IMG/VR virus record: IMGVR_UViG_3300032897_000035
Span: 1-21,930 of that record
DNA: 21,930 nt
Reading direction: 5' to 3' (one strand)
Source of the DNA: a virus
Below the pieces are notes generated by a model, which worked only from the letters and a program-made list of their open reading frames with translations, was not told the DNA's origin and searched no databases. Below, one piece after another: positions 5,180 to 21,723 of the stretch. How positions within the stretch are numbered: position 1 is the stretch's first letter; each line of letters begins with the position of its first letter. The position numbers were made by a program, and so were the translations under genes.

Positions 5180-5188
5180 CTCAAACCT

Positions 5189-7365: not shown

Positions 7366-9789
7366 TTAAGCCCCATGTGTTTCATGAACTATTGTAACAG
7401 TGGTTTGAGTGGCCACAGTATCTCTTATAACAGCACGAACTCTTCCTGTCTCATCAGTATGTGCAGCTAACAGTTGAAGAGGAAGAGTGGTTATCGGAAA
7501 CCCTTGTAGTCTCAAATCAACACACACGCAAGTATGTGCTCCATAATTCCCAGTTGTGTTAGTCCAGAATACAAAATACTTTCCATTCCACACAAAAGAT
7601 TTTATATCCCGTATCAACCCTGGGGCAATGTTGTTTAAGTGTTGTGCGTATCCTATTGCCACATCTGATCTTATTCCATCTTCATAAGCAAATGCTGCAT
7701 AGTTGTAAGAAGAGAGCGTAGGGATTAGTCCAGAAAGTTGATTGTTTCCATAACTGGGAGATTGCCAGAAACGAGCAGGAACCGATATATCGGTAATACA
7801 CTTAGCATGCATACCATCAAAACTCATGACGCCCTTGCGGCTCAGATAGAGTAATCCCGCTTCAGTTGTCTTTTGAACAGAATAAGGAGCGATACAACCA
7901 TCTTCTACTAAAGTCTTAGTGACAGTCAATCCTACAGGACTCGTCCCATCCAGTCTGTAAATTGTATCTTCACAAAGAACAATCAAAGATTGAGCAAAAG
8001 ATTCTAATGCAACAGGAGGATAGGGGAATGATTGAGAGAAGACCGCCGGCCATGCGTCAGGTTGTCCTACAGGCGTCCATCTGACAAGATTACCTATTAT
8101 GCCAAAGAACATATCATAGTGTCGTGTGAGCCCAGTAAGACCCACAGGAGCAGGTTCGTAGATTACTTGGACGCCATTATCAACATAATAACTAGTGGGA
8201 GATTCACCTAAGTTTGCATCTGAGATCGTATCTTGGTAAATAGTTTTCCATATAGGAATTTGTTCTACAAGACCATAACTTCCACCACTGCCTATTCTGT
8301 ATAGATTTCTGTAGGTTATGTAGCCGTTCCCTGGAATGAATCTAAAGGATGAAATACTACCAGTTGCGGATATCGTTTGTTGGGAGATGGAGATGCAGAG
8401 ATTTCCATCAGTAACTGGTGTTTCTAGATGCGCCCGATAGGTTCCTGATGTGAACTCAGGATAAGTAGAACGATCTATATAAACCACGTCCCCTTCACTT
8501 ATATCAGGAGATGATTGAGGGGGACTCCATTGACTAGGAGGTGTCCATTCTATATAAGTTTTTGCCACATTAACAGTAAGAGTATCAACCAAATAAGGAA
8601 GGGTGCTGTTTACAACTATTAATGTAGGAGATGCTCCTGTGGTAATAGGAACGATATCTCCTACTTGCACGTCATTAGTATCTGTGAAAAACACACTGTC
8701 ATACTGTGTCAAATTTAAATCAGTATGAAGCGTGAAGGTTGTTGTGTGAAGAATGTAATTGACATAGACACTACCTGCTTCTATAGAAGAAGTTCCAGCA
8801 GAAGCACTGTTTCTAGTGATTATGGTGGTAGTAATGTTGACATTGTTGTTGGAATCTTTAGTCAAAGCATCAGGAGTTCCGTCGGTTATAACTTGTCTGT
8901 TAGGTTGAGAAAAGAATCCATCAGACAAAGGAGTAAAGGTTATCTCTTTCCCAAGAGTAGGATCAAGCATTACAGACAGAGGTGAGACACCAGACTCATC
9001 CAACATGCCCTTGAAGTCTCGCTGAAAAGTATAAGCATATACGTAATTATTTTTAGCAACATAGTTATCTATCGATTCTCCTGAAGTCCAAGACCCATCG
9101 TCAATAGCTGTTAACTGTGAAGAATTCACTTTCAATGCAACAGTTTCATTTCCACTAGATCCTGCAAATATCAAATATCCAACAGCATTAGGAACAGAAT
9201 TCCAAGTCAATGTAGCTGAATGAGTGTGGATTACTGTGGCATTTGAAAAGATGACAGTTACTTCTTGGCAGGGGATTTGAACCCCTCCAGGCAAAATTGC
9301 TGCTACTCGATAGGATCGACTGGTTCCAGTATAATACAAACCTCCAGTGCTGCTCTGAATCACAGACAAGATTAACTTTGTTATTACTGTGTTGGAGGTC
9401 AGAGGAGCTGTGGAAGGAACAAATGTACCGAGAGGAATTTCAATCCCATAAATGCTTTTTTTGGCAGACCCACCATACTCAGTCCAGAAGATTCGATCCT
9501 GTCCTGCTACCGTATCAGAAGCCCAATCTCTCCATCGAGCTGAAGTATAGATCTGATTCTTATATGAAAATATTGATGTTGTATCGTTTGTTGTATTTGC
9601 TATGAAAGTGTAAGCATTAAAAGGACGAGCTTGACCTGAACGAAAGTCAACTCCGTCTGCTACTGAGCACCATCCTTTTGCAAAGATGGAATAATATCCC
9701 GGCATTATGGTAGGTTGCCCTGCAGGCAAAATACTCTTATCAGCTACTACGTTGACACCGCCAGTCAAGTCTAAGCGATAAGATTTCAT
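7366..9789 (-). CDS. Tail nozzle / hub-type structural protein with beta-propeller (P22 gp10 position)
   Basis: This encodes 807 residues. The N-terminus (MKSYRLDLTGGVNVVADKS, then a conserved ADGVDFRSG stretch around 44-52) resembles phage DNA-stabilisation/nozzle proteins. Residues about 150-245 look like a fibronectin-III-type domain (SYRVAAILPGG, ATLTWNSVPNAVGYLIFAG). Residues about 550-700 contain propeller-like repeats (RHYDMFFGIIGNLVRWTPVG, VLCEDTIYRLDG, LLYLSRKGVMSFDG). In P22 the gp10 hub extends the connector and closes the DNA channel; this protein is much longer than gp10, probably through the inserted Fn3-like and intermediate beta domains. The ATG follows the upstream stop by three bases and has only a weak SD, implying reinitiation. 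Function is inferred from motif style and position. Confidence 0.65.
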   Translation of the reverse strand: MKSYRLDLTGGVNVVADKSILPAGQPTIMPGYYSIFAKGWCSVADGVDFRSGQARPFNAYTFIANTTNDTTSIFSYKNQIYTSARWRDWASDTVAGQDRIFWTEYGGSAKKSIYGIEIPLGTFVPSTAPLTSNTVITKLILSVIQSSTGGLYYTGTSRSYRVAAILPGGVQIPCQEVTVIFSNATVIHTHSATLTWNSVPNAVGYLIFAGSSGNETVALKVNSSQLTAIDDGSWTSGESIDNYVAKNNYVYAYTFQRDFKGMLDESGVSPLSVMLDPTLGKEITFTPLSDGFFSQPNRQVITDGTPDALTKDSNNNVNITTTIITRNSASAGTSSIEAGSVYVNYILHTTTFTLHTDLNLTQYDSVFFTDTNDVQVGDIVPITTGASPTLIVVNSTLPYLVDTLTVNVAKTYIEWTPPSQWSPPQSSPDISEGDVVYIDRSTYPEFTSGTYRAHLETPVTDGNLCISISQQTISATGSISSFRFIPGNGYITYRNLYRIGSGGSYGLVEQIPIWKTIYQDTISDANLGESPTSYYVDNGVQVIYEPAPVGLTGLTRHYDMFFGIIGNLVRWTPVGQPDAWPAVFSQSFPYPPVALESFAQSLIVLCEDTIYRLDGTSPVGLTVTKTLVEDGCIAPYSVQKTTEAGLLYLSRKGVMSFDGMHAKCITDISVPARFWQSPSYGNNQLSGLIPTLSSYNYAAFAYEDGIRSDVAIGYAQHLNNIAPGLIRDIKSFVWNGKYFVFWTNTTGNYGAHTCVCVDLRLQGFPITTLPLQLLAAHTDETGRVRAVIRDTVATQTTVTIVHETHGA

Positions 9790-9792
9790 AGT

Positions 9793-10488
9793 TCATCTTC
9801 TTCCTATAATCAAGTAGAAAATTGGAATGATGATTCCTCCTCCTGCTTGAGGAATGTTTTGAGCAGCAAACGTTCTTGTGGTGCTCATGTCTGCAATACC
9901 ATGACCGTCAGCGTCTACATATTCAAAATGAGTAACATTACCACCTGGGTTAGGAAAGGCTTGGTACAGCGGAGTTACCATCCAAATGCATTGTGCTTGT
10001 GTAGCCTGACTACCATCACCAAAGAAGGGTAGAGGTATTGTTTGGACCACAACAGGACCCACATCTTGAGTGAAAGTAAATGTCCCAAACCCCATAGCTA
10101 TATTTGAAGAAAGTGTGGCTTGAGATAAAAATGTATTTATAGACTGTGTCACTTCAGCATTTATCAGATTGACAAGGGCTGTCTGAAGATTGGTAAGATC
10201 ATTTTGGGTAGCAAGTGGGACTCCATTCAGGGTAGCAGTAGTGGTAAGTGCAGGACTATCTAGAGGAGCCCATCCCGAAACACCTGTGATTGCTCCTGTA
10301 GCAGTAAACCCAGATTGGGTGGCCAATCCTAAGAAAGGATTGTTGACATTACCTATTAACGTCCAACCAGAATTAGAAGTATTTCGCATAGAAATGTTAC
10401 CGGTAGTAGGAACACACCATAAAGCAAAAGCTCCTACAGCACCTGGATCATCTTCTTGCACATATCGGTCTTGTTGTTGAAAGGCCAT
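9793..10488 (-). CDS. Short fibre/needle-like virion protein
   Basis: This encodes 231 residues. The first 75 are beta/Gly-rich. A segment typical of phage fibre shafts follows (GWAPLDSPALTTTATLNGVP, about 72-91), then a short amphipathic helix (about 93-125, LATQNDLTNLQTALVNLI) that could form a trimeric coiled coil. The C-terminal half is a beta-rich globular region ending in a hydrophobic strand (IIIPIFYLIIGRR). AGGGG precedes the ATG. It lies between the adaptor-like genes and the hub gene, so a minor tail fibre, needle or collar role is plausible. I cannot assign it to gp26 or any specific family. Confidence 0.55.
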   Translation of the reverse strand: MAFQQQDRYVQEDDPGAVGAFALWCVPTTGNISMRNTSNSGWTLIGNVNNPFLGLATQSGFTATGAITGVSGWAPLDSPALTTTATLNGVPLATQNDLTNLQTALVNLINAEVTQSINTFLSQATLSSNIAMGFGTFTFTQDVGPVVVQTIPLPFFGDGSQATQAQCIWMVTPLYQAFPNPGGNVTHFEYVDADGHGIADMSTTRTFAAQNIPQAGGGIIIPIFYLIIGRR

Positions 10489-10500
10489 TCAAGATCCCCT

Positions 10501-11394
10501 TTAACTGTTCATAGCTCTTTGAACTCGATGTGGATATCTTTCTTTTGGTAAAACATTCTCAGGGCGAGGTAATGCCAACCCCATTGAAATAGGAGAGTTA
10601 CCTTCTATGAATTCCGTAAACGTAGTAAGGAATTTGTCAGCCAAGGCTATCGATTGGTGATCCCCTGCCATGTTTAATAAGTAATAAGCAGCGGCATATT
10701 TGAGGTATTCTTGATGCATGGGAATTATTCTAGGGTCTATTATTTCAATTAATTGACCGTCGTTTGTAGGAGGAGATACTTCTTGAGTGACTAATTTGAA
10801 TTGAGTGCCTACATTATTATTAGGAGCACCCATTGTTGTAAAATCAGTATCTCCTACAGAAAAGATTTCATACCACTGACCCACATTCAAATGGGCATAA
10901 TCCCCTGCAGAGAATGATTCTGTAGAAGATACTGGCCAGGGGTTTTGTATATAACCTATCGTCAAGGGGTCATCTGCAACAAGATTTGGAATAATTCCTA
11001 CGGTTCTACCGTCAACAACATACCAATATTTTGCAGCAGGACCTGTTTGAACTTCCCAGAAAGGGTTCTTCAATGCTTCCATCATCTTTGTGGTTTTGTG
11101 GAGATTGCCATTAGTCAAAGAAAAAACTCTAACAGGTTGAATACTATCAAAAGGCAAAGTAAAAGAATTAGGAGCAGACCCAGAAGAAAGTGTTGCTGTC
11201 ACTTCAGTATAAGTAGAACTTGTGTGTGTGCAGTATTCCTTAACTGCATAATTAATAGAATCTATAACCATCTCTTCATTCCAAGTATTACCGGCTACTT
11301 CATAAGCACTACTAGGAACAAAATTGATATTGTCTCTAAGAAGCGCTCTTATTAACAATTCCAATCGGTGTGAAGTAAATGCTTTATTGAACAT
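10501..11394 (-). CDS. Connector/adaptor-type structural protein with inserted beta module
   Basis: This encodes 297 residues from the ATG at 11394. I prefer this to the GTG at 11406 because GGAGG stands five bases before the ATG. N- and C-terminal helical regions flank a beta middle. Near residues 70-140 are strand-rich motifs (FTLPFDSIQPVRVFSL, KYWYVVDGRTVGIIPN). Residues about 171-203 form a short repeat-like module (GQWYEIFSVGDTDFTTMGAP, then NVGTQF), a small beta unit found inserted in many phage virion proteins. The C-terminal helices (YLKYAAAYYLLNMAGDH) resemble adaptor/head-completion proteins. It overlaps the upstream gene by 11 bases. I infer a head-to-tail joining role like P22 gp4; the assignment is by architecture and position. 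Confidence 0.6.
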   Translation of the reverse strand: MFNKAFTSHRLELLIRALLRDNINFVPSSAYEVAGNTWNEEMVIDSINYAVKEYCTHTSSTYTEVTATLSSGSAPNSFTLPFDSIQPVRVFSLTNGNLHKTTKMMEALKNPFWEVQTGPAAKYWYVVDGRTVGIIPNLVADDPLTIGYIQNPWPVSSTESFSAGDYAHLNVGQWYEIFSVGDTDFTTMGAPNNNVGTQFKLVTQEVSPPTNDGQLIEIIDPRIIPMHQEYLKYAAAYYLLNMAGDHQSIALADKFLTTFTEFIEGNSPISMGLALPRPENVLPKERYPHRVQRAMNS

Positions 11395-12394
11395 CCCCAC
11401 CTCCACCCTTCATATTTCTGTAAGGACCTGTTGAATACTGCCTACCCACCCAGTTAGGTGGAACCATGAAAGAATCACCAGAACTGCCAAAGATCCCCAT
11501 GCTTTTCAGACCTGATAGTTCTTCTTCGTATCTTTTTCTAAACATCTCAGCTTGTTTTATGTCTTGATGCATACCTGGTGTTCTATAAAGAATCTCCAAG
11601 GTACCATTGATGATTGCTTCCTCAGCCTCAACAGGAAGAGGATTTACTATCATGTCTAGATATTGTGGAGGTGATACTTGCCAGTTTATAGAATTGGGAA
11701 CTACCGCCAAGGTTATCTGGACAACAGTGTCGTATTGAGGAGGAGGATACCAATACAAAGAATTGAATTCTCTTGAGCAATGACTTGGTATACCACGACT
11801 GACTTGATTGGTATCAAACCATTTATCAATTGATACTTTAGAAGTTACACCTAAAGTTTTATATTTATCTAATTTATATTGAATCCAATTGCTACCATCA
11901 GAGCTGATCGTGTCTCCTACATCCCAGGCCATAGTGGTCAATGCTCCCTGCAGGATTGAGGTAGTGGAAGATACCACGTTTGTGGGAATAGGAATTGCTC
12001 CTAATGTGTTTATTAAATAAAAAGAATACGGAGGAAATGAGGGTGCATTGGTATATGTCAGGGTTGTAATTCCATTATACGATGGAGTTATTATCCCTGT
12101 GGACACATCCAACGTTCCCATATATCTTGCTGGATTGGCTACAGACCCCGGGAGAGGAGCAGCTACTACCTTCTTTATAGTAGAAGGTTCACCTCCAGGG
12201 ACAGTCAATGTAGTAACGTGAGTATTGCCTAGCAGAGGAGTCACAGGCAAAGACACCACATTTAAAAAGGTAGCGCGACAAATACAACGAATAACTTCCT
12301 GTAAGGCCCATATGGCGTAACCTTCTCCTTCTTTCTCTATGAGGTCAGGTCGATATACTGAAACTCTAGGGAGTAGTTCGCGCACATAAGACAT
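11384..12394 (-). CDS. Connector/adaptor-type structural protein
   Basis: This encodes 336 residues. An N-terminal helical stretch (EGYAIWALQEVIRCICRATF, about 24-43) is followed by a long beta-rich centre and C-terminal helices (PVEAEEAIINGTLEILYRTP, then HQDIKQAEMFRKRYEEEL) of the kind seen in phage head-tail adaptors, where two helices pack against the portal ring. The extreme C-terminus is Gly-rich. AAGGA lies 10 bases before the ATG. The overall plan resembles the next gene, so the two may form successive rings below the portal or be distant paralogues. No enzymatic motif is visible, and the precise family is not recognised. Confidence 0.6.
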   Translation of the reverse strand: MSYVRELLPRVSVYRPDLIEKEGEGYAIWALQEVIRCICRATFLNVVSLPVTPLLGNTHVTTLTVPGGEPSTIKKVVAAPLPGSVANPARYMGTLDVSTGIITPSYNGITTLTYTNAPSFPPYSFYLINTLGAIPIPTNVVSSTTSILQGALTTMAWDVGDTISSDGSNWIQYKLDKYKTLGVTSKVSIDKWFDTNQVSRGIPSHCSREFNSLYWYPPPQYDTVVQITLAVVPNSINWQVSPPQYLDMIVNPLPVEAEEAIINGTLEILYRTPGMHQDIKQAEMFRKRYEEELSGLKSMGIFGSSGDSFMVPPNWVGRQYSTGPYRNMKGGGGDVQ

Positions 12395-12400
12395 TGTGAT

Positions 12401-12787
12401 TTATTCCTTTTCCATGACCTCTTGGGCTTGGGATGCTAATATGTCTTTGATCAAGAACAATTTTCCTTTTGCAGTGCTTCCAAAAACAGAGGCTATTTCT
12501 TTTAACCTCTTTATATCCATGCTTTTTAACTCTTCCTCTGTGTAAATGTGATCTAGTTCATCTGCCAGCTTATCAAAGCTTCGTTCAAAGCATGTTGGTT
12601 CAAGAGCAGCTCTTTTATAAAGAATAGGCCATCGTTGAGATTCCTCTCCTGTCCGTTCGTAAACTACTCCAGTCATAAGATTGGTTATCCGAAAGCATCT
12701 TTTAGAATCTGCTAAATATTGACTTTCCACTAATTTGTCACAAGACTCCATGACAGGTTTTATGTTTCCAAGAATCCTTGGTTCCAT
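12401..12787 (-). CDS. Small protein with C-terminal HeH/SAP-like helical motif
   Basis: This encodes 128 residues. The N-terminal half is unassigned and contains three cysteines (C16, C31, C66). Residues about 84-120 (EEELKSMDIKRLKEIASVFG, then KGKLFLIKDILASQ) match the helix-extension-helix or SAP-like pattern, which in phage proteins often marks a nucleic-acid-binding or head-associated small domain. GAGGAG precedes the ATG with five-base spacing. It is the first gene after the terminator that follows the coat gene, and it directly precedes the adaptor-like genes, so it may act in head completion. That role is inference. Confidence 0.55.
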   Translation of the reverse strand: MEPRILGNIKPVMESCDKLVESQYLADSKRCFRITNLMTGVVYERTGEESQRWPILYKRAALEPTCFERSFDKLADELDHIYTEEELKSMDIKRLKEIASVFGSTAKGKLFLIKDILASQAQEVMEKE

Positions 12788-12798
12788 TGAAACTCCTC

Positions 12799-12829
12799 AA
12801 AAAAGAAGGGATGACCGAAATCATCCCTT
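12799..12829 (-). terminator. Rho-independent terminator after the coat gene
   Basis: A perfect 9-bp stem (AAGGGATGA with TCATCCCTT) closes a 6-base loop at 12806-12829. On the minus strand it is followed by C and then six T residues (12804-12799). It begins 42 bases after the coat stop, and the SD of the next gene comes directly after it. It should end or thin transcription coming through the coat gene. Confidence 0.85.
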
Positions 12830-12870
12830 GGGTCAATTATTATAGTAAGTTACTTGCAGGTAATAGTCAA

Positions 12871-13776
12871 TTACGCAGTGATATTAACCTGAAGTGCAAC
12901 AAGGCAATCTGGCTTGACAGTTTTGAAACCAAAAGCATTTACTGCACGAAGACCTTGCCCTGTGTAATCGATCAAGAAGGGAAGAACTTCGAAGTGAGTA
13001 AACTGAGTAGCCAAAGTGATTGACTCGATATGACCGGCAATTGCGTAGTAGGGGTTGGCAACAGTTCCAGCCCCTGGGATGAATGGAGAAGTGTAGATCT
13101 TGAAACCTTCAAGCTCTCCAACAAAACCTCTTTGCAATGCACCCTGAACTGTTCCAGCATTAAGAGCATAGAGAGGAACAGCTTGTTTTAATCGGGTCAT
13201 CATTGCAGGATGCATTACCAACCAACGATCTTCTTGGGGGGCAAAGCTCATATCCAAAAGTTCATGAGCCTTACTTAAGAACAAAGTAGGAGTGGCATCC
13301 CAGTCACTATAAGTTGCGCCAGTACCAGTTCCTGTTCCAAAGGCATTGTATGCGATAGTGGACTGTGCATCAGCATACACTGAACCCAGAATGGTAGTTT
13401 CAATTCGTATCCTAAGTCTGTTGGCAATTTCATCCATCAGTTCAGGTTGAACGTTTATATCGAACTCATGCATATCAACGATGTCTAAAGGAACAGCAGC
13501 TTCAAACGCATAAGCGATCTCTAACTTCTGCGAGACATCATTGATTGGAGTCCATATGGTCTTTTCATTCTTGACGTAAGGAGATACGGAGATATCAGGT
13601 CTCTGCCTGAGAATCACAGTATTGCCTTTTTCTTTAATCTCTCCCTGCCAGTGCTGATTTGTGATTACGTTGCAAACTGATGCAGCATAAAACTTTGAAA
13701 TCAACCTGGGAGAATATATGGTTGGTATGAAAGCATTGTTTGGGAAATTCATACCAGTTGAAGGAATAGTAGCCAT
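12871..13776 (-). CDS. Major capsid (coat) protein, HK97 fold
   Basis: This encodes 301 residues. The N-terminus runs FIPTIYSPRLISKFYAASV, then HWQGEIKEKGNTVILRQRPD, the pattern of P22-type/phage coat N-arms and E-loop. The middle has ELMDEIANRLRIRIETTILG and the spine helix LSKAHELLDM, followed by DRWLVMHPAMMTRLKQ, GFVGELEGFKIYTSP and the C-terminal QGLRAVNAFGFKTVKPDCLV strand set typical of this coat family. It lies downstream of scaffold and a decoration candidate, with AGGAG eight bases before the ATG. A strong terminator follows the stop, fitting a gene that needs high local expression. Confidence in the role is high; the precise subfamily is not. Confidence 0.9.
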   Translation of the reverse strand: MATIPSTGMNFPNNAFIPTIYSPRLISKFYAASVCNVITNQHWQGEIKEKGNTVILRQRPDISVSPYVKNEKTIWTPINDVSQKLEIAYAFEAAVPLDIVDMHEFDINVQPELMDEIANRLRIRIETTILGSVYADAQSTIAYNAFGTGTGTGATYSDWDATPTLFLSKAHELLDMSFAPQEDRWLVMHPAMMTRLKQAVPLYALNAGTVQGALQRGFVGELEGFKIYTSPFIPGAGTVANPYYAIAGHIESITLATQFTHFEVLPFLIDYTGQGLRAVNAFGFKTVKPDCLVALQVNITA

Positions 13777-13793
13777 TGTTGTTTCTCCTCAGA

Positions 13794-14303
13794 TTAGTAA
13801 CTGGCAGCGCCAAGTTCTTCGGTTTCAATTAACAACTCAACTCTACCTGCAGTAGCACCAGTCCAAGTTCCACCAAGAGTCAACTGGATGGCATTAGCTG
13901 TATAATAAAAAACTGGGGGGTAGACTAAGGTTACAGTATAGCTTCCACTTCCGAGCTGTGTATCTGTGATGTGACTAGAATAGCAAGTTCCAGCAGTAGT
14001 GGTCACATCTGAAGCAGCAATGAAGGCTCCAGAAGATTGGTCACCAACAGCTATCGTTGCGCCAGATACACTGCCACCAGCGACGGGTACGGTGATTATC
14101 ATGTTGATGCTTTTGACTTTCGTCCAAGCACTTATTGTGAGGATATCGATGGTATCTCCAGATGCCGCAGCAGAACCCTTGCAGGTCTTGATATCAGCGA
14201 GATCTATTGTTACACGATGGGTGTCATCTCCTTGCTTTTTAGCCTGATAAAGCATCTTGGCCAGATTAGCAGAAGAGATCATACTGACTGTGCCAGTAGA
14301 CAT
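13794..14303 (-). CDS. Putative capsid decoration / minor head protein
   Basis: This encodes 169 residues, mostly Ala/Gly/Ser/Thr with beta-strand periodicity (MIITVPVAGGSVSGATIAVG, then SYTVTLVYPPVFYYTANAIQ, LGGTWTGATAGRVELLIETE). The N-terminal 25 residues (SSANLAKMLYQAKKQGDD) are helical. AGGAG precedes the ATG with six-base spacing. It lies between scaffold and coat, the usual place for a decoration or minor head protein, and its composition matches small beta-barrel head proteins. No specific family is recognised, so the role is an inference from position. Confidence 0.6.
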   Translation of the reverse strand: MSTGTVSMISSANLAKMLYQAKKQGDDTHRVTIDLADIKTCKGSAAASGDTIDILTISAWTKVKSINMIITVPVAGGSVSGATIAVGDQSSGAFIAASDVTTTAGTCYSSHITDTQLGSGSYTVTLVYPPVFYYTANAIQLTLGGTWTGATAGRVELLIETEELGAASY

Positions 14304-14316
14304 TTCATTCTCCTAG

Positions 14317-15423
14317 TTATTTGTGGTATTTTTGGGCATACTTCTTTTCGTATCGGGTCAGCAGTTTCTCTGCCTCCTCGAATTTTCCAGAGTTTTGTAA
14401 TTTGATTACTTCTGTAGTTATTCTGTTGCCATCACTTAAGTAATCAAACTCTTTGTCTGTCAAAGATCCTGGACCAGCTTCAACAGCAATCGGGGCAGGA
14501 AGATTGGAATTCACTCTTGTTACTCTGTCTCCAAGAGAAGGGGTTTCTGTCTTTCTTTGAATCCCTAGATCTTTTTTGAACATAGTAAGAATGTGACCAA
14601 ACTCTTTCCCACTAACACTCAATGGAGTCTCAACAATGTTTGTTATAAACGACGGTTGTGTAGTTGTCGCCCAATGCAGCATTGCATCATAGTTCTCATT
14701 GAGAAATTCGCGGGCATCAGGGTGAATTGAAGCTATTTCTGCCAGGTGAGCATTGACAGCCATTTGATGTTGGATTTGCTCCAAATTAGTAAATCTAGGA
14801 TCAGCTTTACTTTTGTGAAGCTCTTCTTTCATCTTTTCAATTTCTTGCATTCGTTCATTCAATTTTCTCGAAATATTGGATTCCATCCGAGCGAGTCTTT
14901 TATCGACTCCTTTTGAGATATCCTCGAATTCAGAAAGTTCATCAGGTTCTAATGGAGTATGTGCAGCAGGTTTATTTACACGGTCCATAAGATCGTTCAG
15001 CTTTTCTGTCAAAGAATCTATCTTGCTTGAGAGTTCTTTGTTCTCTCGTTTAAGCTCAGCTCTTTCCTGTTGAAGCTTAGTAAGTTCCGGTTGCTGGTCA
15101 CTTCTACGCTTCCTTTCAGTTGCAGCCTGCTTTTTCCAATAGTTGAGATCTTTTACTTCCTCTTCAGGAATCGGAGGAAGTGTGGTACTAGTACCTGTCT
15201 CAACTGGTGGAGCACTTGGTGGATTCAAAAGAGGATCAGGAGGGGTATCAAGCCTGACAACATTTACGTCCGGGTAAGTCTCAACACTTACAGGACCAAG
15301 CTCGGGCACCTTCGGTTCAAGTTTTGATCTTTCAAGTTGTTCCTCTGCATCAAACAATTGTTGGGCATACATCTTTTCCCCACCAGTCATTTGAGCAATT
15401 TGTTCTTTTGTATAAGTGGCCAT
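14317..15423 (-). CDS. Scaffolding protein
   Basis: This encodes 368 residues with typical scaffold make-up: few aromatic residues, a Pro-rich stretch (about 58-90), then a strongly charged coiled coil at 92-150 (ELTKLQQERAELKRENKE) and a second at 168-207. The C-terminal 40 residues are helical and end in a basic segment (LLTRYEKKYAQKYHK), like the coat-binding C-terminal helices of P22 scaffold. AAGGAG lies five bases before the ATG. A sigma70-like promoter and structured leader sit directly upstream. It should assemble inside the procapsid and leave before or during packaging; no protease motif is visible. Confidence 0.8.
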   Translation of the reverse strand: MATYTKEQIAQMTGGEKMYAQQLFDAEEQLERSKLEPKVPELGPVSVETYPDVNVVRLDTPPDPLLNPPSAPPVETGTSTTLPPIPEEEVKDLNYWKKQAATERKRRSDQQPELTKLQQERAELKRENKELSSKIDSLTEKLNDLMDRVNKPAAHTPLEPDELSEFEDISKGVDKRLARMESNISRKLNERMQEIEKMKEELHKSKADPRFTNLEQIQHQMAVNAHLAEIASIHPDAREFLNENYDAMLHWATTTQPSFITNIVETPLSVSGKEFGHILTMFKKDLGIQRKTETPSLGDRVTRVNSNLPAPIAVEAGPGSLTDKEFDYLSDGNRITTEVIKLQNSGKFEEAEKLLTRYEKKYAQKYHK

Positions 15424-15428
15424 TTAGG

Positions 15429-15455
15429 CTCCTTGTAGAGGTCCTTATAAAGGAG
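15429..15455 (-). promoter_or_regulatory. Leader with two mutually exclusive hairpins over the scaffold SD
   Basis: In the minus-strand transcript CTCCTT (15455-15450) can pair with the scaffold SD AAGGAG (15434-15429) over a 15-base loop. The same bases can instead form a local hairpin TCCTT/AAGGA (15454-15442) with a 3-base loop, which frees the SD. A switch in translation is inference; pairing is visible. Confidence 0.35.
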
Positions 15456-15461
15456 TAGTCT

Positions 15462-15482
15462 ACTGTATAAAAATTATACAGT
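15462..15482. repeat. Inverted repeat overlapping the scaffold promoter
   Basis: Two 9-base arms, ACTGTATAA and TTATACAGT, are separated by AAA. The repeat covers the -10 box of the minus-strand promoter and the end of the 68-aa gene. No T-tract follows on the minus strand, so an operator is more likely than a terminator. Confidence 0.6.
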
Positions 15483-15502
15483 TAGTCTTCAAACAAAGTC
15501 AA
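15473..15502 (-). promoter_or_regulatory. Sigma70-like promoter for scaffold, decoration and coat genes
   Basis: On the minus strand TTGACT (15502-15497) and a perfect TATAAT (15478-15473) are 18 bases apart. The -35 box lies inside the last codons of the 68-aa gene. The start point would fall about 15466, upstream of the scaffold SD. It would raise scaffold-decoration-coat expression up to the terminator at 12799. Confidence 0.6.
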
Positions 15503-15688
15503 CAATGATTGTAACTTCCTTATGGCCCCTTGGGACCTATATATCAAATGAGGTTCGAATTGACGATCTACTACCAACTGTTCCATTGCTATTAAAGCAT
15601 TTACATACTCTGTAAAAGCAATCCGTGTGTCCTTATTCATTTTCAACAAGAGGTCGTTTTCTAGTTTAGTTAGAACATTTTTGTTCAT
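15482..15688 (-). CDS. Small helical protein between portal and scaffold
   Basis: This encodes 68 residues, helical throughout (LTKLENDLLLKMNKDTRIAF, then VNALIAMEQLVVD and IRKLQSLLTLFED). GGAGG lies six bases before the ATG and inside the end of the portal gene, so it is clearly translated after portal. The C-terminal codons also carry the -35 box of the scaffold promoter. A minor head-assembly role is possible from position only; I do not recognise the family. Confidence 0.6.
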   Translation of the reverse strand: MNKNVLTKLENDLLLKMNKDTRIAFTEYVNALIAMEQLVVDRQFEPHLIYRSQGAIRKLQSLLTLFED

Positions 15689-15690
15689 GA

Positions 15691-18027
15691 CTATCCTCCG
15701 TTTGGTTTCATACCTGCCATCTTGACAGCATGCTCTTGTTTACTAGTTTCTAATCTTTCTTTGTGACGATGCGCATGTAATTCAGTAGGACCTATCTCTC
15801 TATTAGCAGCTTCTGTTCCCATTTGGTGAACCGTATCATGATCTTTAACTTCTTGCATTGCAATGGCATCCTCAAAAGATTTTTGCAAATCAGGAGTTAT
15901 GTTGCCAGATTCAGCCAAAACCTTTTCTATAAGTTTTAGTTTGAGAGCTGTGCATTCTTCAGGGACAGCTTCCATTGCTTGCAGTAACATATCTTGAGGA
16001 GTAGTCTGAGCGCGCATCTTTTCATTTGCTGCTTGTTGCTGCTCAGCTTGCATATTTATGCCTGATTGTAACTGAGCTGCTGCTGCTTGATTGACAGCCT
16101 GCATTTGTTGTTCCTGCTCATCACGGGCTCTTTGTTCAGTTTCTGTAAAGAAAATATGCTCATCAACCAATCCTGAACCCTTCATGTTTAATTCCGAAAC
16201 ACGATTCCAGTCCACACGTTTGGCTGCTTCAGGATTTTGAACTACTGTAGTTAATAGATTTGCTAATTTTTGATTAGCAATGTCCCGTGCCATCAGACCA
16301 GACAAACCTTTAGCCGTAACCTTAAAGTCTCCAACAATTGAAGGGTCTTTGCTAAACTTCAAATTGAACCTGATCATATCCCCAATCATAGGGGCTATCA
16401 AGCAATTATCCAAATTGGAAGCTACTACTTTCATGGGAGTTAAGGCATTGTTGAACTGTAATTGAGCACCGCTTGAGGTTCTATTGTGAACACCTTCCCC
16501 ACTCTCACCTTGCAACATTTTAGGTAGAGATGTTTGTTCATCAGATAAATTCATATGAAACTGCATCAACTTTAAAAATTCATCTAGATGAGACTGAGGA
16601 TTAAAAAAGATTATAGGATTTGGAGTAGCACCAGGAAGCTCTGACTCTTCTACCCTAAAGATTTTCCAAGGAGCTATTTCCATAGCTTCTTCTCCAGGGG
16701 CTAGCCTGTTAGTGTGCACCACAGTCATAGGCCCAGCAATCATAGCCATGTTATCACATGCAGAACGAGCTGCTGCATTGATCATGTCTTGAGAATCCCA
16801 CATGTACTCAGCAGGGCCTGAACCCCAAATGGAATGAGGGACCATGTTGTAAGGTGTGAAGTAGAATGGTAATTTGCATCTATATAAATCAGAGACTTGA
16901 AGATAAATTACGCGTCCACCTAACACCCATACTTGGCACATCACTTGTTCGTAACGCTGTGATTCTTCTATCTTGATACCAGCTTTTTCAATGTCATCCC
17001 CGCTCAAGAATCCCCATCGAATTTTTACAATGAAACGATCTGCAGGACAATTCATCTGAAACTGTTGGTTGGTTATGTTTATGACTGATTCCCATCGTTC
17101 AGGTGTCCAATCACCATTCTTGGTTTTCTGCAAAACTTCTTTTATGATGTCAGCTTTGAATCCATCGAGTTTTGTCAAATCCATAACCTGACTTCTGTTC
17201 AATACTTTTCGTATTGTAACAAACATCAAATCTTCAGTTTTATGAGCAGCAGGGTCAGGATATACTTCAAAAGGATTATAAGCTTCTAATTGTGGACGAT
17301 ATTCATCCACATAACCTGAGGCTTCCATCGAAGGAAGATTTATAATCTTTTGCCATCGTTTCATCAACTCAGGATCTTCATTTCGTTTGGCAGCTTCAGG
17401 ACTCTGGTAAGTAGGAACAGCGAAAGGCGCTCCTACTATAGAAATCCCGTATTCACATAAATGTAGAGTTGTTTGTTGTAATACCATAGCCCAATTGGTC
17501 TCATCCAATTGGCTGCTTATCTTTCTTGTCATATTTTCAGCAGCTTTGTCTGCGGCTTCTTTTATTGCTTTTCTTATATCTTCAGGAGGAAGATTTTTTT
17601 GAAGTAGTTGTAGTAATAGTTCTGGAATAAAAGGATCTCTTGTCGAAGACACATCCCAGGCATTCTCTCCAGGAGGAAGTGCTACTTCCATCAACCTAGC
17701 ATGAGCGTTAGATACTTTAGGACGAGTGACTTGAACAAAGACTCTAGAATTACCACCGTTGTAATTTATGTCAGGAGAATACACACCTTTACAATTCTGA
17801 TGGCATCGTATCCAAATGTTTTCTTGGAATAGTCTGGCCGAACGACATTGAGTAAACTCATCCTCAACTTTAGCCGCAAGATGGTCTATCTCCTCATCAT
17901 CAGCTCGTTGTAGTATTTTTGCTACTTTTGATTCAGAAGATTCTGGCTTCTGAAACAAATCTTGATAAGAATTATCTGTTGGATTGTTTAACTTTTGTGG
18001 TCCTTGAGATGGATCTTCATAGGCCAT
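15691..18027 (-). CDS. Portal protein, large podovirus type
   Basis: This encodes 778 residues, close to the long P22-like class. The N-terminus has a helical EDEFTQCRSARLFQENIWIR region, then the wing and stem regions (YNPFEVYPDPAAHKTEDLMF, PFYFTPYNMVPHSIWGSGPA, SQDMINAAARSACDNMAMIA), typical of this portal family. From about residue 630 the C-terminus is Gln/Ala rich (QEQQMQAVNQAAAAQ) and helical, matching a barrel or crown extension into the head. The ATG is two bases after the large terminase stop, with GGAG as SD. It forms the 12-subunit vertex through which DNA is packaged and ejected. The last 40 residues are His/Lys/Glu rich. Confidence 0.9.
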   Translation of the reverse strand: MAYEDPSQGPQKLNNPTDNSYQDLFQKPESSESKVAKILQRADDEEIDHLAAKVEDEFTQCRSARLFQENIWIRCHQNCKGVYSPDINYNGGNSRVFVQVTRPKVSNAHARLMEVALPPGENAWDVSSTRDPFIPELLLQLLQKNLPPEDIRKAIKEAADKAAENMTRKISSQLDETNWAMVLQQTTLHLCEYGISIVGAPFAVPTYQSPEAAKRNEDPELMKRWQKIINLPSMEASGYVDEYRPQLEAYNPFEVYPDPAAHKTEDLMFVTIRKVLNRSQVMDLTKLDGFKADIIKEVLQKTKNGDWTPERWESVINITNQQFQMNCPADRFIVKIRWGFLSGDDIEKAGIKIEESQRYEQVMCQVWVLGGRVIYLQVSDLYRCKLPFYFTPYNMVPHSIWGSGPAEYMWDSQDMINAAARSACDNMAMIAGPMTVVHTNRLAPGEEAMEIAPWKIFRVEESELPGATPNPIIFFNPQSHLDEFLKLMQFHMNLSDEQTSLPKMLQGESGEGVHNRTSSGAQLQFNNALTPMKVVASNLDNCLIAPMIGDMIRFNLKFSKDPSIVGDFKVTAKGLSGLMARDIANQKLANLLTTVVQNPEAAKRVDWNRVSELNMKGSGLVDEHIFFTETEQRARDEQEQQMQAVNQAAAAQLQSGINMQAEQQQAANEKMRAQTTPQDMLLQAMEAVPEECTALKLKLIEKVLAESGNITPDLQKSFEDAIAMQEVKDHDTVHQMGTEAANREIGPTELHAHRHKERLETSKQEHAVKMAGMKPNGG

Positions 18028-18029
18028 TC

Positions 18030-19430
18030 TTACACTCCAATGTTTTTATCAAACGGTTTCCACTCTTTTACAGTAACGATACGTTTGTTGTTTCGCCTAA
18101 ATCCTTGGGTCTCAGCTTTTTCATAATTCGCAACAGCATGGGTAAAAGCATCAACCAAGTCATCATCTTTTTTATCTATTTCTACCTTGTTGTTTTTATT
18201 CATCTTAGTATGATAGTTTCTTATCTGGCTCATCAATTCAGGACATTTATCTTTGAAGATGAACAATCTTCCTTCAGACATTAGAGATCTTGCTTTTTCT
18301 ATCCTAGCCCAAACTTCTCTACCAGCACTGAACAAAATCATTCCTTCTTTTTTGAACTCATTGGCTACACAATCACCATTCTGAAAATTATTATTAAAGG
18401 CATCATGAGAAGCAGCAAAAGGCATATCCCAGTGCCTGAGAAATCTACCTACATCCGAAGCACTCTTTTGTTTTGCGTAATACTCACCATATATATAGAT
18501 GATGTTAGTTTCTCGATCCCAAGCTAATTGGATCGCTCCTGTGGGATGGTTGTATCCAATATCCATCCCTGCCAGTCGGGGCCAATAAGAAGGTATTTCA
18601 AAACTATCACATGAGTATTCCCAAGGCTCGAAAGAGAATATCTGACCCCCTCCTATTGCTGGTATACCATGTCTTCGGGCTCTGGCTTGTAATTCATCCA
18701 ACCCTTTTAGCATTTCAGTTATGGTTTCCTCATCTAACCAAGGAACGTCATCCATAGAAATGCTAAAGATTTGGGCTTTATCATCTTCCAACAATTGCCT
18801 GCATACTACAGGGTTTGAAGATAATGGAGTAAAGGCATACAACAAATACCCCTTCTTGACCATAACCCTCATCTTACATTCTGCATGAATACCTTCAGGA
18901 GGTTCTTCGTCAAAGCACACAATATCAATGGTTGAGCTTTGGAAGTGTTCTCGTTCTTGCTCATAGGATAAGAACACCAAAGTTGACCATCCACCAGAGG
19001 TGTGTTTTACTCTCACTTGTTGGTACGCATTCGGTATACCTGGTTTTTTTGTAAAACCGTTTTCAAAATCCATACAGTCTTTTGGAATAAACCCTGTTCC
19101 AAAATGACCGATCTCCCCTAACAATCCTTTTTGAAGATTATCTCTTACTTTCTCAGAGTTGACACCTACTACCCACATTTCTATAGGTCGATTGTATCTA
19201 ATACCATTCCAATCTTTTGGATATCTTCCTGTTAACTGGGTTGCTATCTCATACATCAAAGTAGAAGATTTTCCTGTTTGGTTTCCTGCCACAAGGGCTT
19301 TCTTATGACTACTGCAATCTAGGAAAGCTTTTTGTTTTCCAAAAGGTTCCCAGTGAGTCAGTTTGTTTTCTGATCTCAGTTTTATCAGGTTTTCAGCTAA
19401 CTTCAGGGCTTCGTGAATATTACCGCTCAT
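18030..19430 (-). CDS. terL: Terminase large subunit (packaging ATPase and nuclease)
   Basis: This encodes 466 residues. The ATPase half shows Walker A GNQTGKSS (49-56), Walker B IDIVCFDEE (168-176) and motif III AFTP (199-202). The nuclease half shows the RNase H-like acidic residues: D290 in GMDIGYNHPTG, D343 in AASHDAF, and D422-D427 in DDDLVDAF. A run typical of this family precedes Walker B (FLSYEQEREHFQSSTIDIVC). It cuts concatemers and drives DNA through the portal encoded next. The start is fixed by an in-frame TGA five codons upstream and no nearer start. No SD precedes the ATG, but a promoter-like -10 box does (19437-19442), so the transcript may be leaderless. Confidence 0.95.
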   Translation of the reverse strand: MSGNIHEALKLAENLIKLRSENKLTHWEPFGKQKAFLDCSSHKKALVAGNQTGKSSTLMYEIATQLTGRYPKDWNGIRYNRPIEMWVVGVNSEKVRDNLQKGLLGEIGHFGTGFIPKDCMDFENGFTKKPGIPNAYQQVRVKHTSGGWSTLVFLSYEQEREHFQSSTIDIVCFDEEPPEGIHAECKMRVMVKKGYLLYAFTPLSSNPVVCRQLLEDDKAQIFSISMDDVPWLDEETITEMLKGLDELQARARRHGIPAIGGGQIFSFEPWEYSCDSFEIPSYWPRLAGMDIGYNHPTGAIQLAWDRETNIIYIYGEYYAKQKSASDVGRFLRHWDMPFAASHDAFNNNFQNGDCVANEFKKEGMILFSAGREVWARIEKARSLMSEGRLFIFKDKCPELMSQIRNYHTKMNKNNKVEIDKKDDDLVDAFTHAVANYEKAETQGFRRNNKRIVTVKEWKPFDKNIGV

Positions 19431-19436
19431 TGTTAA

Positions 19437-19465
19437 ATGATATCAGCTTGCTATCTTATCAGCAA
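19437..19465 (-). promoter_or_regulatory. Candidate promoter giving a leaderless large terminase mRNA
   Basis: On the minus strand TTGCTG (19465-19460) and TATCAT (19442-19437) are 17 bases apart. The -10 box ends six bases before the ATG, so transcription would start at or next to the A of ATG. The -35 match is weak (3/6). Direct repeats TATCAGC (19441-19447 and 19457-19463) overlap it and could be an operator. Confidence 0.35.
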
Positions 19466-19514
19466 TATGTCATCATGGATCAAGGCAAGTCGACGCCTTA
19501 CTAGGAGATCAAAA

Positions 19515-19694
19515 ATGGCTAAACATGTTCACAACCCAGAATCGCACGGACCGGAAGCTTTGACAGGCAACATTGATCATGTCGGAGATGGCCGTATGAT
19601 TGGTAACGTTGGTCCAGGTAAACCTCAGCCACAGACAAGTATTGTCAGTGACACTAGAGATTTAGGTTATGGTAATAAAGGAAATGACAAGTAA
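19515..19694 (+). CDS. Small GKPQPQ-motif protein 1, opposite to the late operon
   Basis: This encodes 59 residues. The ATG at 19515 was chosen over upstream in-frame codons because AGGAG stands seven bases before it and the upstream extension has unrelated composition. It is Gly/Asn/His rich, with GKPQPQTSIVSDTR at 35-48. The next plus-strand gene carries the same motif and starts on the stop codon (TAATG), so the two are coupled. It lies between the two terminase genes but is transcribed against them. No known domain is seen; a small virion or regulatory moron-type product is a guess. Confidence 0.6.
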   Translation: MAKHVHNPESHGPEALTGNIDHVGDGRMIGNVGPGKPQPQTSIVSDTRDLGYGNKGNDK

Positions 19695-19921
19695 TGGCCA
19701 AATGTAAGAATCCAGGCTTCAACCAAGATTTCAGATATCCTTATGAGAAGAAGAAACCTATAGACTTAAAGGGCGCTGGCCTTAAACCTATAGACTTTCA
19801 AGATGAGGATATGCCGACAATCACCATTCATGAAATGGGAAAAGTGAATATTGGAAAACCACAACCCCAAAGCTCACAGGTTGTCTCAACTAGGCCAAAA
19901 GAGAAGAAGGGCAAAAAGTAA
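19694..19921 (+). CDS. Small GKPQPQ-motif protein 2, paralogue of its neighbour
   Basis: This encodes 75 residues. Near the end it has GKPQPQSSQVVSTR (54-67), aligning with the motif of the preceding protein, and the N-termini are alike (MAKHVHNPE, MAKCKNPG). It also holds an internal KPID(L/F) duplication (21-24 and 31-34) and a Lys-rich tail. The start codon overlaps the previous stop by one base. Synonymous codons in the shared motif differ between the genes, which fits an old duplication kept for protein sequence. A strong terminator follows. Function unknown. Confidence 0.6.
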   Translation: MAKCKNPGFNQDFRYPYEKKKPIDLKGAGLKPIDFQDEDMPTITIHEMGKVNIGKPQPQSSQVVSTRPKEKKGKK

Positions 19922-19956
19922 AAATAAGAATTCTCTGGTAATTAATATCGTACCTT

Positions 19957-19996
19957 GAGGGAGAGATTGTGTTGACAGTCTCTCCCTCTTTCTTTT
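19957..19996 (+). terminator. Rho-independent terminator of the GKPQPQ gene pair
   Basis: A perfect 10-bp stem (GAGGGAGAGA with TCTCTCCCTC) encloses a 12-base loop and is followed by TTTCTTTT on the plus strand. The T-rich tail overlaps the last codon and stop of the oppositely oriented small terminase gene. There is no T-tract on the minus strand, so it acts on plus-strand transcripts. Confidence 0.8.
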
Positions 19997-20720
19997 ATTC
20001 GTTCTCTTCTTTGTATTCTAGACTATCCATTGTTCCAGAAGACATCAATAGATCCCGTATATCAGGATGAGTGTTCAGAATCTCAATTAGTTTCTTACGA
20101 GCTTCTTCCTCATTATTTGCAGATACATTTTCATTTATATTTCTCTGTTTAGATTGGAACTTTTCATTTAAATTACCGGCATGTTGGATAAGCGCATCAT
20201 GTGCGATTTTCGCATGGGATATTTTGTTTTTGTCTAAACGTTTGGTATCAGGATCTTTTTTGCCAGCTTCTCTGACATAATCCAATCCCTCTTGAGCTAA
20301 TGCCTCTGCACGAAACTTTTCAGCCTTCACTAATTCTGCCTTGAAGTCAGGATGAGAATCCTGCCATCTAGATATTTCTATTGCTGTAGGAAAACTTTCA
20401 TATTCATTACCCTCTTCTATTATTTCAACTAGAGAGAGTCCCTCATAGGTCAAAGTTATAATCAATTCCATCATTTCGTATCTATTAAGTCTTTCATCAT
20501 CAACCACAAAGATCTTCTCACTTGCGTTGTAAGTTTCTCTTCTCTTAGCTTGATCAAATCGAGCACGAGCCGCCCTAAAGGAAGTCTCGTCGTTCCAAAG
20601 CCTTGGATCTTTTTGCTTCTCGGGCCTGTGCCTCACTAGGGGAAATTTCTTTAAAGGTGATTCGGCCAGATTCTTTAATGACCGGTTCGACAAGTCCTCC
20701 AGTTCCTGATTCTTTTTCAT
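19995..20720 (-). CDS. terS: Terminase small subunit
   Basis: This encodes 241 residues from the ATG at 20720; a TTG at 20738 would add six residues but has no SD. GGAG lies 12 bases before the ATG, so translation may depend on the overlapping upstream HTH gene. The core (about 90-190) has the small-terminase pattern: a helical YEGLSLVEIIEEG, a recognition-like ISRWQDSHPDFKAELVKAEK, then helices AEALAQEGLDYVREA and HAKIAHDALIQHAGNLNEKF. The C-terminus is acidic and would contact the large subunit. The first 49 codons overlap the HTH gene in another frame. It recognises the packaging site on DNA. The large subunit lies downstream but separated by two opposite-strand genes. Confidence 0.75.
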   Translation of the reverse strand: MKKNQELEDLSNRSLKNLAESPLKKFPLVRHRPEKQKDPRLWNDETSFRAARARFDQAKRRETYNASEKIFVVDDERLNRYEMMELIITLTYEGLSLVEIIEEGNEYESFPTAIEISRWQDSHPDFKAELVKAEKFRAEALAQEGLDYVREAGKKDPDTKRLDKNKISHAKIAHDALIQHAGNLNEKFQSKQRNINENVSANNEEEARKKLIEILNTHPDIRDLLMSSGTMDSLEYKEENE

Positions 20721-20925
20721 GATGACGTTTGTCTCCAATAGAACAACTTATACCAGTTTTTTCCGACAACTCTATCCATTCTTTACTTATAAGAAGTTTG
20801 TTTCCAAACATTGTAGCAGGTATCAACTTTTCATTTATCTTTCTGCGTATAGTTAAAGCACATACTCCAAATCGTTCTGCTACTTCATCTATAGAATACC
20901 AATCCTTCTGAGGTCTTAATGCCAT
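20575..20925 (-). CDS. Excisionase-type (HTH_17/MerR-like) DNA-binding protein
   Basis: This encodes 116 residues. Residues about 9-52 match the excisionase-type winged HTH: WYSIDEVAERFGVCALTIRR, then NEKLIPATMFGNKLLISKEW. The C-terminal half is charged and disordered-looking (SPSEAQAREAKRSKALERRD). AAGGA lies nine bases before the ATG, which overlaps the end of the zinc-ribbon gene. Its last 146 bases overlap the small terminase gene out of phase, and it ends in CTT TAG. Since lambda Nu1-type small terminases begin with this kind of HTH, it may be the DNA-binding part of packaging, alone or fused by frameshift. A plain regulator is the alternative. Confidence 0.7.
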   Translation of the reverse strand: MALRPQKDWYSIDEVAERFGVCALTIRRKINEKLIPATMFGNKLLISKEWIELSEKTGISCSIGDKRHHEKESGTGGLVEPVIKESGRITFKEISPSEAQAREAKRSKALERRDFL

Positions 20926-21128
20926 ACCATACTATCCTTAATCCATCGCAAAGTGGAAATAGAACCACAACAAGGGCATTCACCATAATCATGTTCACGC
21001 TCTGACAAAAATACTGCATGCTCTCCACAAGCACAGAACATATGCTTACACATCCTCCAGCTTAAAATCATAGTTTCAATTTCACTTCTACTCTTAATAT
21101 TTTTTGCTTTAAGGTTCGGATGTTGCAC
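20916..21128 (-). CDS. Small zinc-ribbon protein
   Basis: This encodes 70 residues. The start is a GTG at 21128, six bases after a strong GGAGG; an in-frame extension to 21353 would run antisense through a plus-strand gene with its own signals. The C-terminal half carries cysteines at 27, 32, 34, 51, 53 and 54, with FCACG and GECPCCGS as the likely metal-binding knuckles. It is the first gene of the minus-strand unit, just below a promoter, and overlaps the HTH gene start by 10 bases. DNA or protein binding is likely; the specific role is unknown. Confidence 0.6.
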   Translation of the reverse strand: MQHPNLKAKNIKSRSEIETMILSWRMCKHMFCACGEHAVFLSEREHDYGECPCCGSISTLRWIKDSMVWH

Positions 21129-21151
21129 AAGAAACCTCCAGATACTATAAT
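21123..21151 (+). promoter_or_regulatory. Sigma70-like promoter for the basic/His-repeat gene pair
   Basis: TTGCAC (21123-21128) and a perfect TATAAT (21146-21151) are 17 bases apart, and a G-rich SD-like stretch (21159-21165) lies upstream of the ATG at 21172. The -35 box overlaps the GTG start of the minus-strand zinc-ribbon gene, so the two units share one control region. Confidence 0.6.
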
Positions 21152-21178
21152 TATGCACGGGGGAAGAAATAATGGCAA
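21150..21178 (-). promoter_or_regulatory. Sigma70-like promoter for the zinc-ribbon/HTH/terminase unit
   Basis: On the minus strand TTGCCA (21178-21173, 5/6) and CATAAT (21155-21150, 5/6) are 17 bases apart, and the SD and GTG of the zinc-ribbon gene follow at 21139 and 21128. Its -35 box lies in the first codons of the plus-strand gene. Its -10 box overlaps the -10 box of the divergent plus-strand promoter. Confidence 0.6.
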
Positions 21179-21384
21179 CCAAGAAAAAGACAATGAAACA
21201 ACCTTTGATCAAACCTGAGAATAAAGGAAAGTTTACTAAGAAGGCTAAAGAACATGGTGAAAGTGTTTCTAAATACGCAAAGGAGGTTTTACAAGAAGGA
21301 AGTAAAGCAAGCGCAACTACAAAGAAGGAAGCTAATTTTGCTCGTAACGCCAAGAAATGGAATCATTCTAAAAAGGGAAAATAA
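21172..21384 (+). CDS. Small basic protein (FARNAKKW type)
   Basis: This encodes 70 residues, about a third Lys. The middle FTKKAKEHGESVSKYAKEVL (21-40) looks like a short helix-turn-helix unit, and NFARNAKKW (55-63) is a tail motif that I associate with small conserved phage proteins of unknown function found near terminase genes. It directly follows a promoter and ends in TAATG with the next gene, so the two are co-translated. Nucleic-acid binding is suggested by charge only. Family identity is from memory of the pattern and unsure. Confidence 0.6.
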   Translation: MATKKKTMKQPLIKPENKGKFTKKAKEHGESVSKYAKEVLQEGSKASATTKKEANFARNAKKWNHSKKGK

Positions 21385-21614
21385 TGTTTGAAAGAACACA
21401 GTTCGTCAGTTGTATCACTGATGATTTATTAAAGGAGCTAGGAATGGCTGCAAAGAAAGCAGAGCATATAACACTAAAGAAAGTTCATGCCAAACATGAG
21501 AAAGAGCACAAAGAGGTTCATGCTAAGCATGAGTCTGCTCACAAAACAATGCACTCTAAACATGAGAAGGAAGTCAAAAAAGTGCATGAGAAGTATGAAA
21601 AGAAGAAGAAGTAA
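21384..21614 (+). CDS. His/Lys-rich 11-residue repeat protein
   Basis: This encodes 76 residues from the ATG at 21384, which shares a base with the previous stop and has AAGGGA nearby. An internal ATG at 21444 has a better SD (AAAGGAG, six bases away) and would give 56 residues starting MAAKKAEH, so either or both may be used. Residues 32-75 are four 11-residue repeats on the plan K-x-(V/M)-H-x-K-(H/Y)-E-x-x-(H/V/K), a hendecad-type coiled coil with nine histidines. Metal binding, acid sensing or DNA binding are possible. A strong terminator follows 20 bases downstream. Function unknown. Confidence 0.65.
   Translation: MFERTQFVSCITDDLLKELGMAAKKAEHITLKKVHAKHEKEHKEVHAKHESAHKTMHSKHEKEVKKVHEKYEKKKK
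21477..21608 (+). repeat. Four tandem 33-base units inside the His/Lys-rich gene
   Basis: The coding sequence repeats every 33 bases, encoding KKVHAKHEKEH, KEVHAKHESAH, KTMHSKHEKEV and KKVHEKYEKKK. Base identity between units is partial, so copies have diverged while protein period is kept. Confidence 0.8.
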
Positions 21615-21634
21615 ACTTTAATTCATACAAACCT

Positions 21635-21662
21635 AAAGGAGGTCAAAAGACCTCCTTTTTTT
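21635..21662 (+). terminator. Strong rho-independent terminator
   Basis: A perfect 10-bp stem (AAAGGAGGTC with GACCTCCTTT) with AAAA loop is followed by a run of T residues. It ends the plus-strand pair that begins at 21172. Confidence 0.9.
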
Positions 21663-21675
21663 AATAAAATTTAAC

Positions 21676-21703
21676 ATGACTTTGTTCCAAGAGTTCTTAT
21701 ACT
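21676..21703 (+). promoter_or_regulatory. Possible promoter for the rightmost gene
   Basis: ATGACT (21676-21681, 4/6) and TATACT (21698-21703, 5/6) are 16 bases apart and come after a terminator, where a new promoter is expected. The start point would be close to the SD at 21711. Confidence 0.35.
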
Positions 21704-21723
21704 TTTAATCAGGAGGCGAACTA

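Follow-up and report, generated by a model that had tools for sequence, protein, structure and literature searches.

A candidate regulator site over an internal promoter-like sequence ahead of the capsid gene of a phage distantly related to HMO-2011

Why should a perfect inverted repeat lie over the -10 box of a promoter-like sequence in the middle of a block of phage head genes? The locus that raises this question belongs to a virus record 21,930 bases long, the whole of which was analysed and is referred to here as the window. A first-pass annotation, made without database searches, had described a -35 and a -10 box on the minus strand, the spacer between them and a repeat covering the -10 box, and on re-reading of the sequence all of these proved correct, coordinates included (Table 1, which gives sequences, placement and gene order as they stand in the window). 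Read on the minus strand the palindrome is ACTGTATAA-TTT-TTATACAGT, that is ACTGTATAATTTTTATACAGT (15482-15462), and both the -10 box and the expected transcription start (about 15466) lie beneath it. The promoter-like sequence scores 11/12, with its spacing within 16-18 nt, against the sigma70 consensus; it is the best sigma70-like match within the scanned positions 3000-21930, and the palindrome is the sole match to its pattern in the window. A 68-aa ORF, its stop codon included, ends on the first base of the palindrome, which is housed in the 58-nt gap between that ORF and the scaffold-like gene, this being the only gap exceeding a few bases in the stretch from the portal gene to the scaffold-like gene; the promoter is on the right strand for the genes that follow. 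The palindrome is of a length that suits a dimeric protein and it overlaps a promoter, both being properties looked for in an operator. The hexamer AGACTA abuts the palindrome on either side (15456-15488, minus strand), so that a direct repeat stands beside the inverted one.

Table 1. Features of the locus and genes for candidate binding proteins (positions are those of the window unless L004 or L005, in the overlapping contig, is given)
Feature	Position	Strand	Remarks
-35 box TTGACT	15502-15497	minus	inside last codons of the 68-aa ORF
-10 box TATAAT	15478-15473	minus	18-nt spacer to the -35 box
Inverted repeat ACTGTATAA-AAA-TTATACAGT	15462-15482		perfect; arms 9, loop 3, 21 bp
68-aa ORF	15482-15688	minus	flanked by the portal and scaffold-like genes; stop codon reaches the repeat
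368-aa ORF, scaffold-like	14317-15423	minus	role suggested by position only; first gene past the promoter
169-aa ORF	13794-14303	minus	function not assigned; between scaffold-like and capsid genes
Major capsid protein	12871-13776	minus	PHROG 267 major head protein, E 4.7e-33
Intrinsic-terminator-like hairpin	12829-12806	minus	10 pairs, UUCG loop, then CTTTTTTG; after capsid gene
HTH_17/excisionase-type protein	20575-20925	minus	HTH_17 E 1.2e-07; excisionase-type PHROG match
95-aa HTH_3 protein	L004:8976-9263		overlapping contig; E 6.8e-11
91-aa Cro/CI-like protein	L005:7073-7348		PHROG 1373 transcriptional regulator, E 8.2e-09; Pfam below cut-off
159-aa protein	L005:6597-7076		overlapping contig; weak HTH matches

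Of the two genes that separate the promoter from the major capsid gene, the scaffold-like one matches an SbcC-like PHROG weakly (E 0.00062) and the 169-aa ORF has no PHROG match. A hairpin resembling an intrinsic terminator sits beyond the capsid gene, 44 nt on from where the stop codon begins; its predicted fold (-13.9 kcal/mol over 41 nt, z -1.61) was equalled by 11 of 200 shuffles and is thus not exceptional. Among 19 capsid-matching records (the window included) 12 contain 150 nt beyond the capsid stop codon, and such a hairpin is present in four of these (the window, L012, L014 and L021) and absent from eight. The hairpins of L012 (at 41 nt, with a poor T tail) and L014 (at 40 nt) occupy the same position as that of the window, and these two loci rank among its closest relatives by portal. 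The promoter, the scaffold-like gene, the 169-aa gene, the capsid gene and the terminator would therefore make up a delimited unit. The earlier proposal of an internal late promoter is plausible, and because the terminator-like hairpin directly follows the major capsid gene that reading is strengthened; from this arrangement we infer promoter activity, a start site, terminator activity and a capsid unit.

Our preferred reading, to which we give a probability of about 0.55, is that of an internal promoter for the capsid unit with the palindrome as a candidate regulator site. A sigma70-type promoter within the minus-strand head-gene block would give transcripts starting near 15466, and these would provide extra output for the scaffold-like, 169-aa and major capsid genes and end at the terminator behind the capsid gene; in the simplest reading, a dimeric phage regulator bound to the palindrome could hold RNA polymerase back until the late phase of infection. 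This last step, repression through the palindrome, is a conjecture which, taken alone, we regard as possible and somewhat doubtful.

A second viral contig (IMGVR_UViG_3300032893_000181; 36,467 bases) overlaps the window at 16459-21930 with zero mismatches over 5,472 bases, for which reason it appears to derive from the same phage; since it ends at window position 16459, it does not include the repeat site. It encodes a DnaB helicase, an SSB, a dUTPase, a protein with a primase-polymerase domain and a DNA polymerase, as well as a Tlde1-domain protein (L004 8579-8992; E 4e-11). Within the window, two small plus-strand ORFs (19437-19694 and 19694-19921) lie between the minus-strand genes for the terminase large subunit and a small-subunit-like protein, and a strong terminator-like hairpin (19957-19988) comes after them. 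The portal protein matched 36 phage records, all at less than 60 % identity (21.1 to 29.1 % among the 30 matches listed, which include HMO-2011 and Roseobacter, Pelagibacter, Rhizobium, Sinorhizobium, Aeromonas and Vibrio phages), and the capsid protein matched 34 records, again all below 60 %. The phage is a distant relative of the HMO-2011-like podophages. The phage collection held no DNA-level relative of positions 14300-18100, and scans of viral contigs led, with the portal and terminase proteins, to the overlapping contig alone and, with the capsid protein, to no relative; a close relative covering the site was thus not found in the collections searched.

Comparison was made with 82 relative loci, which together with the window gave a portal match in 83 of 83 and of which 75 (window included) extend for 600 nt past the portal stop codon. 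With thresholds of at least 10/12 for a coding-strand promoter, and of arms of at least 8 and a loop of at most 8 for a repeat, promoters were found after the portal gene in 5 of the 75 loci against 9.5 expected, and repeats in 5 against 6.4 expected (the window being counted in both). The window alone has both: the pair of promoter and palindrome occurs in none of the 74 relatives with 600 nt downstream, and since all of these are distant (portal about 25-32 % identical) its absence is weak evidence against an operator. L011, L013 and L014, three of the five closest relatives that have a small ORF behind the portal gene, carry an extended -10-like sequence, TGATANAAT, directly after the portal stop codon, at the junction of the portal gene and the small ORF; L012 and L015 are without it. 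The pattern occurs in only those three among the 80 examinable loci of the 82, against 0.78 expected, but it was picked after being seen and no -35 box was demanded, for which reason it hints only faintly at a promoter one gene further upstream.

The lack of conservation in the 74 relatives also fits a different reading, in which the palindrome is an A+T-rich coincidence, whether or not the promoter is real, and which we consider a distinct possibility. Neither element beats chance by itself. Sigma70-like matches in general are no more frequent than in shuffled sequence (46 at 3000-21930, against a shuffle mean of 47.9), and 43 % of simulated windows (n=200) contained at least one promoter of 11/12 or better. 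Repeats with arms of at least 9 and a loop of at most 3 were expected at about 0.4 to 0.5 per simulated window, with one observed, and a longer perfect A+T-rich palindrome, with 10-bp arms, lies inside an ORF of the overlapping contig (G001 30087-30106). What chance accounts for less well is the combination. The joint event, a promoter of at least 11/12 with its -10 box within a repeat having arms of at least 9 and a loop of at most 3, appeared in none of 600 simulated windows (300 order-1 and 300 order-2). Looser limits (10/12, arm 8, loop 5) gave it in 9 of the 600, none of them mostly within positions that are intergenic in the window (by our own gene list, 3.3 % of its bases), and the loosest limits tried (9/12, arm 8, loop 8) gave it in 19.5 % of 200 simulations. 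As all of these limits were set after the feature had been seen, the figures serve as a guide only.

Further copies of the palindrome would also speak for a binding site, and a search for them had been suggested along with the proposal of an operator. There is no second exact copy in the window or the overlapping contig, which together are perhaps not the whole genome. The best near-copy, AGTGTATACTTTTTATACATT, lies in the overlapping contig (G001 10903-10923), has 3 mismatches and shares bases with the dnaB stop codon. A match of this level arose by chance in 2 to 3 % of simulations when the 18 arm positions were considered and in 0 to 0.3 % when all 21 were (3 x 1000 simulations; an earlier, smaller run gave 1/60 for the arm positions), a result modestly above expectation that tells against coincidence. 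The idea of an operator thus gained one near-copy in the same phage, while the position of that copy, where no clear promoter was recognised, and the distribution of the pair among relatives weigh on the other side. Close to it are poorer matches, at 11189 (5 mismatches) and 9592 (6 mismatches). Within 1.5 kb of the candidate regulator genes of the overlapping contig, no match at 5 mismatches or better was found; the 6-mismatch match at 9592 is 329 nt upstream of the HTH_3 gene and was given no weight. In every other locus the best match had at least 4 mismatches (87 loci, 749 kb, several being overlapping pieces of the same contig).

The viral contigs, from which records of the window's own genome were possibly left out, contain no exact copy of the oriented 21-mer, whereas the exact palindrome with a free middle was found in the collections at 5 viral and 11 genome loci, the latter including two Sulfurimonas, two Tenericutes and three Clostridia or Clostridiales records. 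One genome locus, from candidate division KSB1 (L097), has a full match to the 21-mer, and this lies within an ORF. An ORF follows at least five of the genome copies (L094, L095, L096, L101 and L102), the genes downstream of these encoding a MerR-family regulator, a formate/nitrite transporter, a xylose-isomerase-like TIM-barrel protein, a sodium:alanine symporter and a methyltransferase; no gene is common to them, and even the two Sulfurimonas copies precede unrelated genes. Because exact palindromes adjoin unrelated genes, no known operator emerges, and their scatter over differing organisms favours chance. Several of the collection copies resemble hairpins or terminators by eye. Two viral loci (L090 3841-3979 and L092 6274-6412) have common surroundings with three spaced CTGTATAAAGGTTATACAG-like palindromes, and in Enterococcus malodoratus the free-middle palindrome (L094 6769-6789) stands 9 bases before the ORF of the MerR-family regulator.

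The repeat might instead act as RNA, a hairpin in read-through transcripts past the stop codon of the 68-aa ORF shielding or processing the scaffold-like message. Its location, past one stop codon and ahead of the next gene, would suit this role, and the minus-strand RNA of 36 nt is predicted to fold at -8.7 kcal/mol (z -3.42), with one of 200 shuffles as good. The fold of a 101-nt segment is however ordinary (z -0.96; 37 of 200 shuffles as good), the stem is A+U-rich and has no U run behind it, and the near-copy is inverted relative to its gene, dnaB, and has a weak predicted fold (-2.7 kcal/mol, z 0.24). Five of the six environmental relatives nearest to the window (L011-L015, with L010 as the exception) can likewise be read as having a small ORF and a following ORF after the portal gene, and no such repeat was seen by eye where their small ORF meets the scaffold gene. 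No Rfam family reached the gathering score in the window, L004 or L005, and relaxed settings over 15300-15700 yielded two hits below the cut-off, both to animal families, which we took as chance. On this balance a role as RNA is unlikely. The repeat was also considered as an intrinsic terminator and rejected, because it is A+U-rich and without a following U run; it is not in the terminator list.

If the palindrome is, as in the preferred reading, a site for a phage regulator, several proteins come into consideration as binders. The one named by the first-pass annotation (20575-20925) is indeed of a helix-turn-helix type, with weak MerR matches besides those in Table 1, and in its favour one of the 11 palindromes in bacterial genomes (L094) precedes a MerR-family gene. 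Proteins of the Cro/CI type, acting as dimers, fit a palindrome better, and those of the overlapping contig seem to be better candidates than the HTH_17 protein. The ORFs of that contig were scanned in part (20 of them and, in addition, further ones), so that further regulators may exist. Between divergent gene blocks, beside two genes with Cro/CI-type matches, the same contig has about 750 bases without an ORF of more than 60 aa (L005 5840-6596), in which no Rfam family reached the gathering score; a 24-base repeat, 92 % identical, occurs at L005 5805 and 5959. It is interesting to speculate that a Cro/CI-type regulator of the phage, by binding the palindrome at two distant places, over the -10 box ahead of the capsid unit and at the end of dnaB, would link capsid production to the passage from replication to assembly, with the host RNA polymerase in use for these genes, a scheme that we think improbable.

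A protein of the host or of a satellite, rather than of the phage, might also bind the site as a regulator of capsid expression. The LexA (SOS) box is CTGT-N8-ACAG, and the half-sites here are LexA-like, yet their spacing is CTGT-N11-ACAG; a LexA box was rejected by this spacing. Neither a host nor a satellite is known for this phage, and the two Sulfurimonas copies stand ahead of unrelated genes. Satellites that lower the capsid operon of a helper phage are known, so that capsid-operon control is a point at which phage satellites act as well (PMC7567579). For the present site we judge such a regulator very improbable.

The site is of an ordinary kind for phage regulation. If real, it would add one more host-polymerase promoter before capsid genes, raising their share of expression, with a possible timing switch, and the general picture would stay unchanged. 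As in phiM6, Rollin and CRP-9, where a small gene is annotated right after the portal gene, the window has its 68-aa ORF there; in phiM6 and CRP-9 further genes and then an annotated capsid or coat gene follow, as they do here, the genes of Rollin in that place being annotated as hypothetical. The portal protein is 22.7 to 29.1 % identical to those of phiM6, Rollin, CRP-9 and HMO-2011; the promoter-palindrome pair after the portal gene sets the window apart from the 74 relatives compared, phiM6, Rollin and CRP-9 being among the 82 loci supplied. Repressor operators overlapping the -10 box are a known arrangement at phage promoters, and the palindrome resembles them in covering the -10 box and the start, whereas it differs from them in having one near-copy in place of an array of sites, and a binder that is a candidate only. 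A capsid unit running from promoter to terminator is likewise an organization already known from other podophages. In T7 the phi10 promoter and the T-phi terminator flank gene 10, and the phage transcribes that capsid unit with its own RNA polymerase. The window would share with T7 an extra promoter before, and a terminator after, the capsid gene, and would differ from it in the sigma70-like boxes of the promoter and in the inclusion of a scaffold-like gene within the unit.
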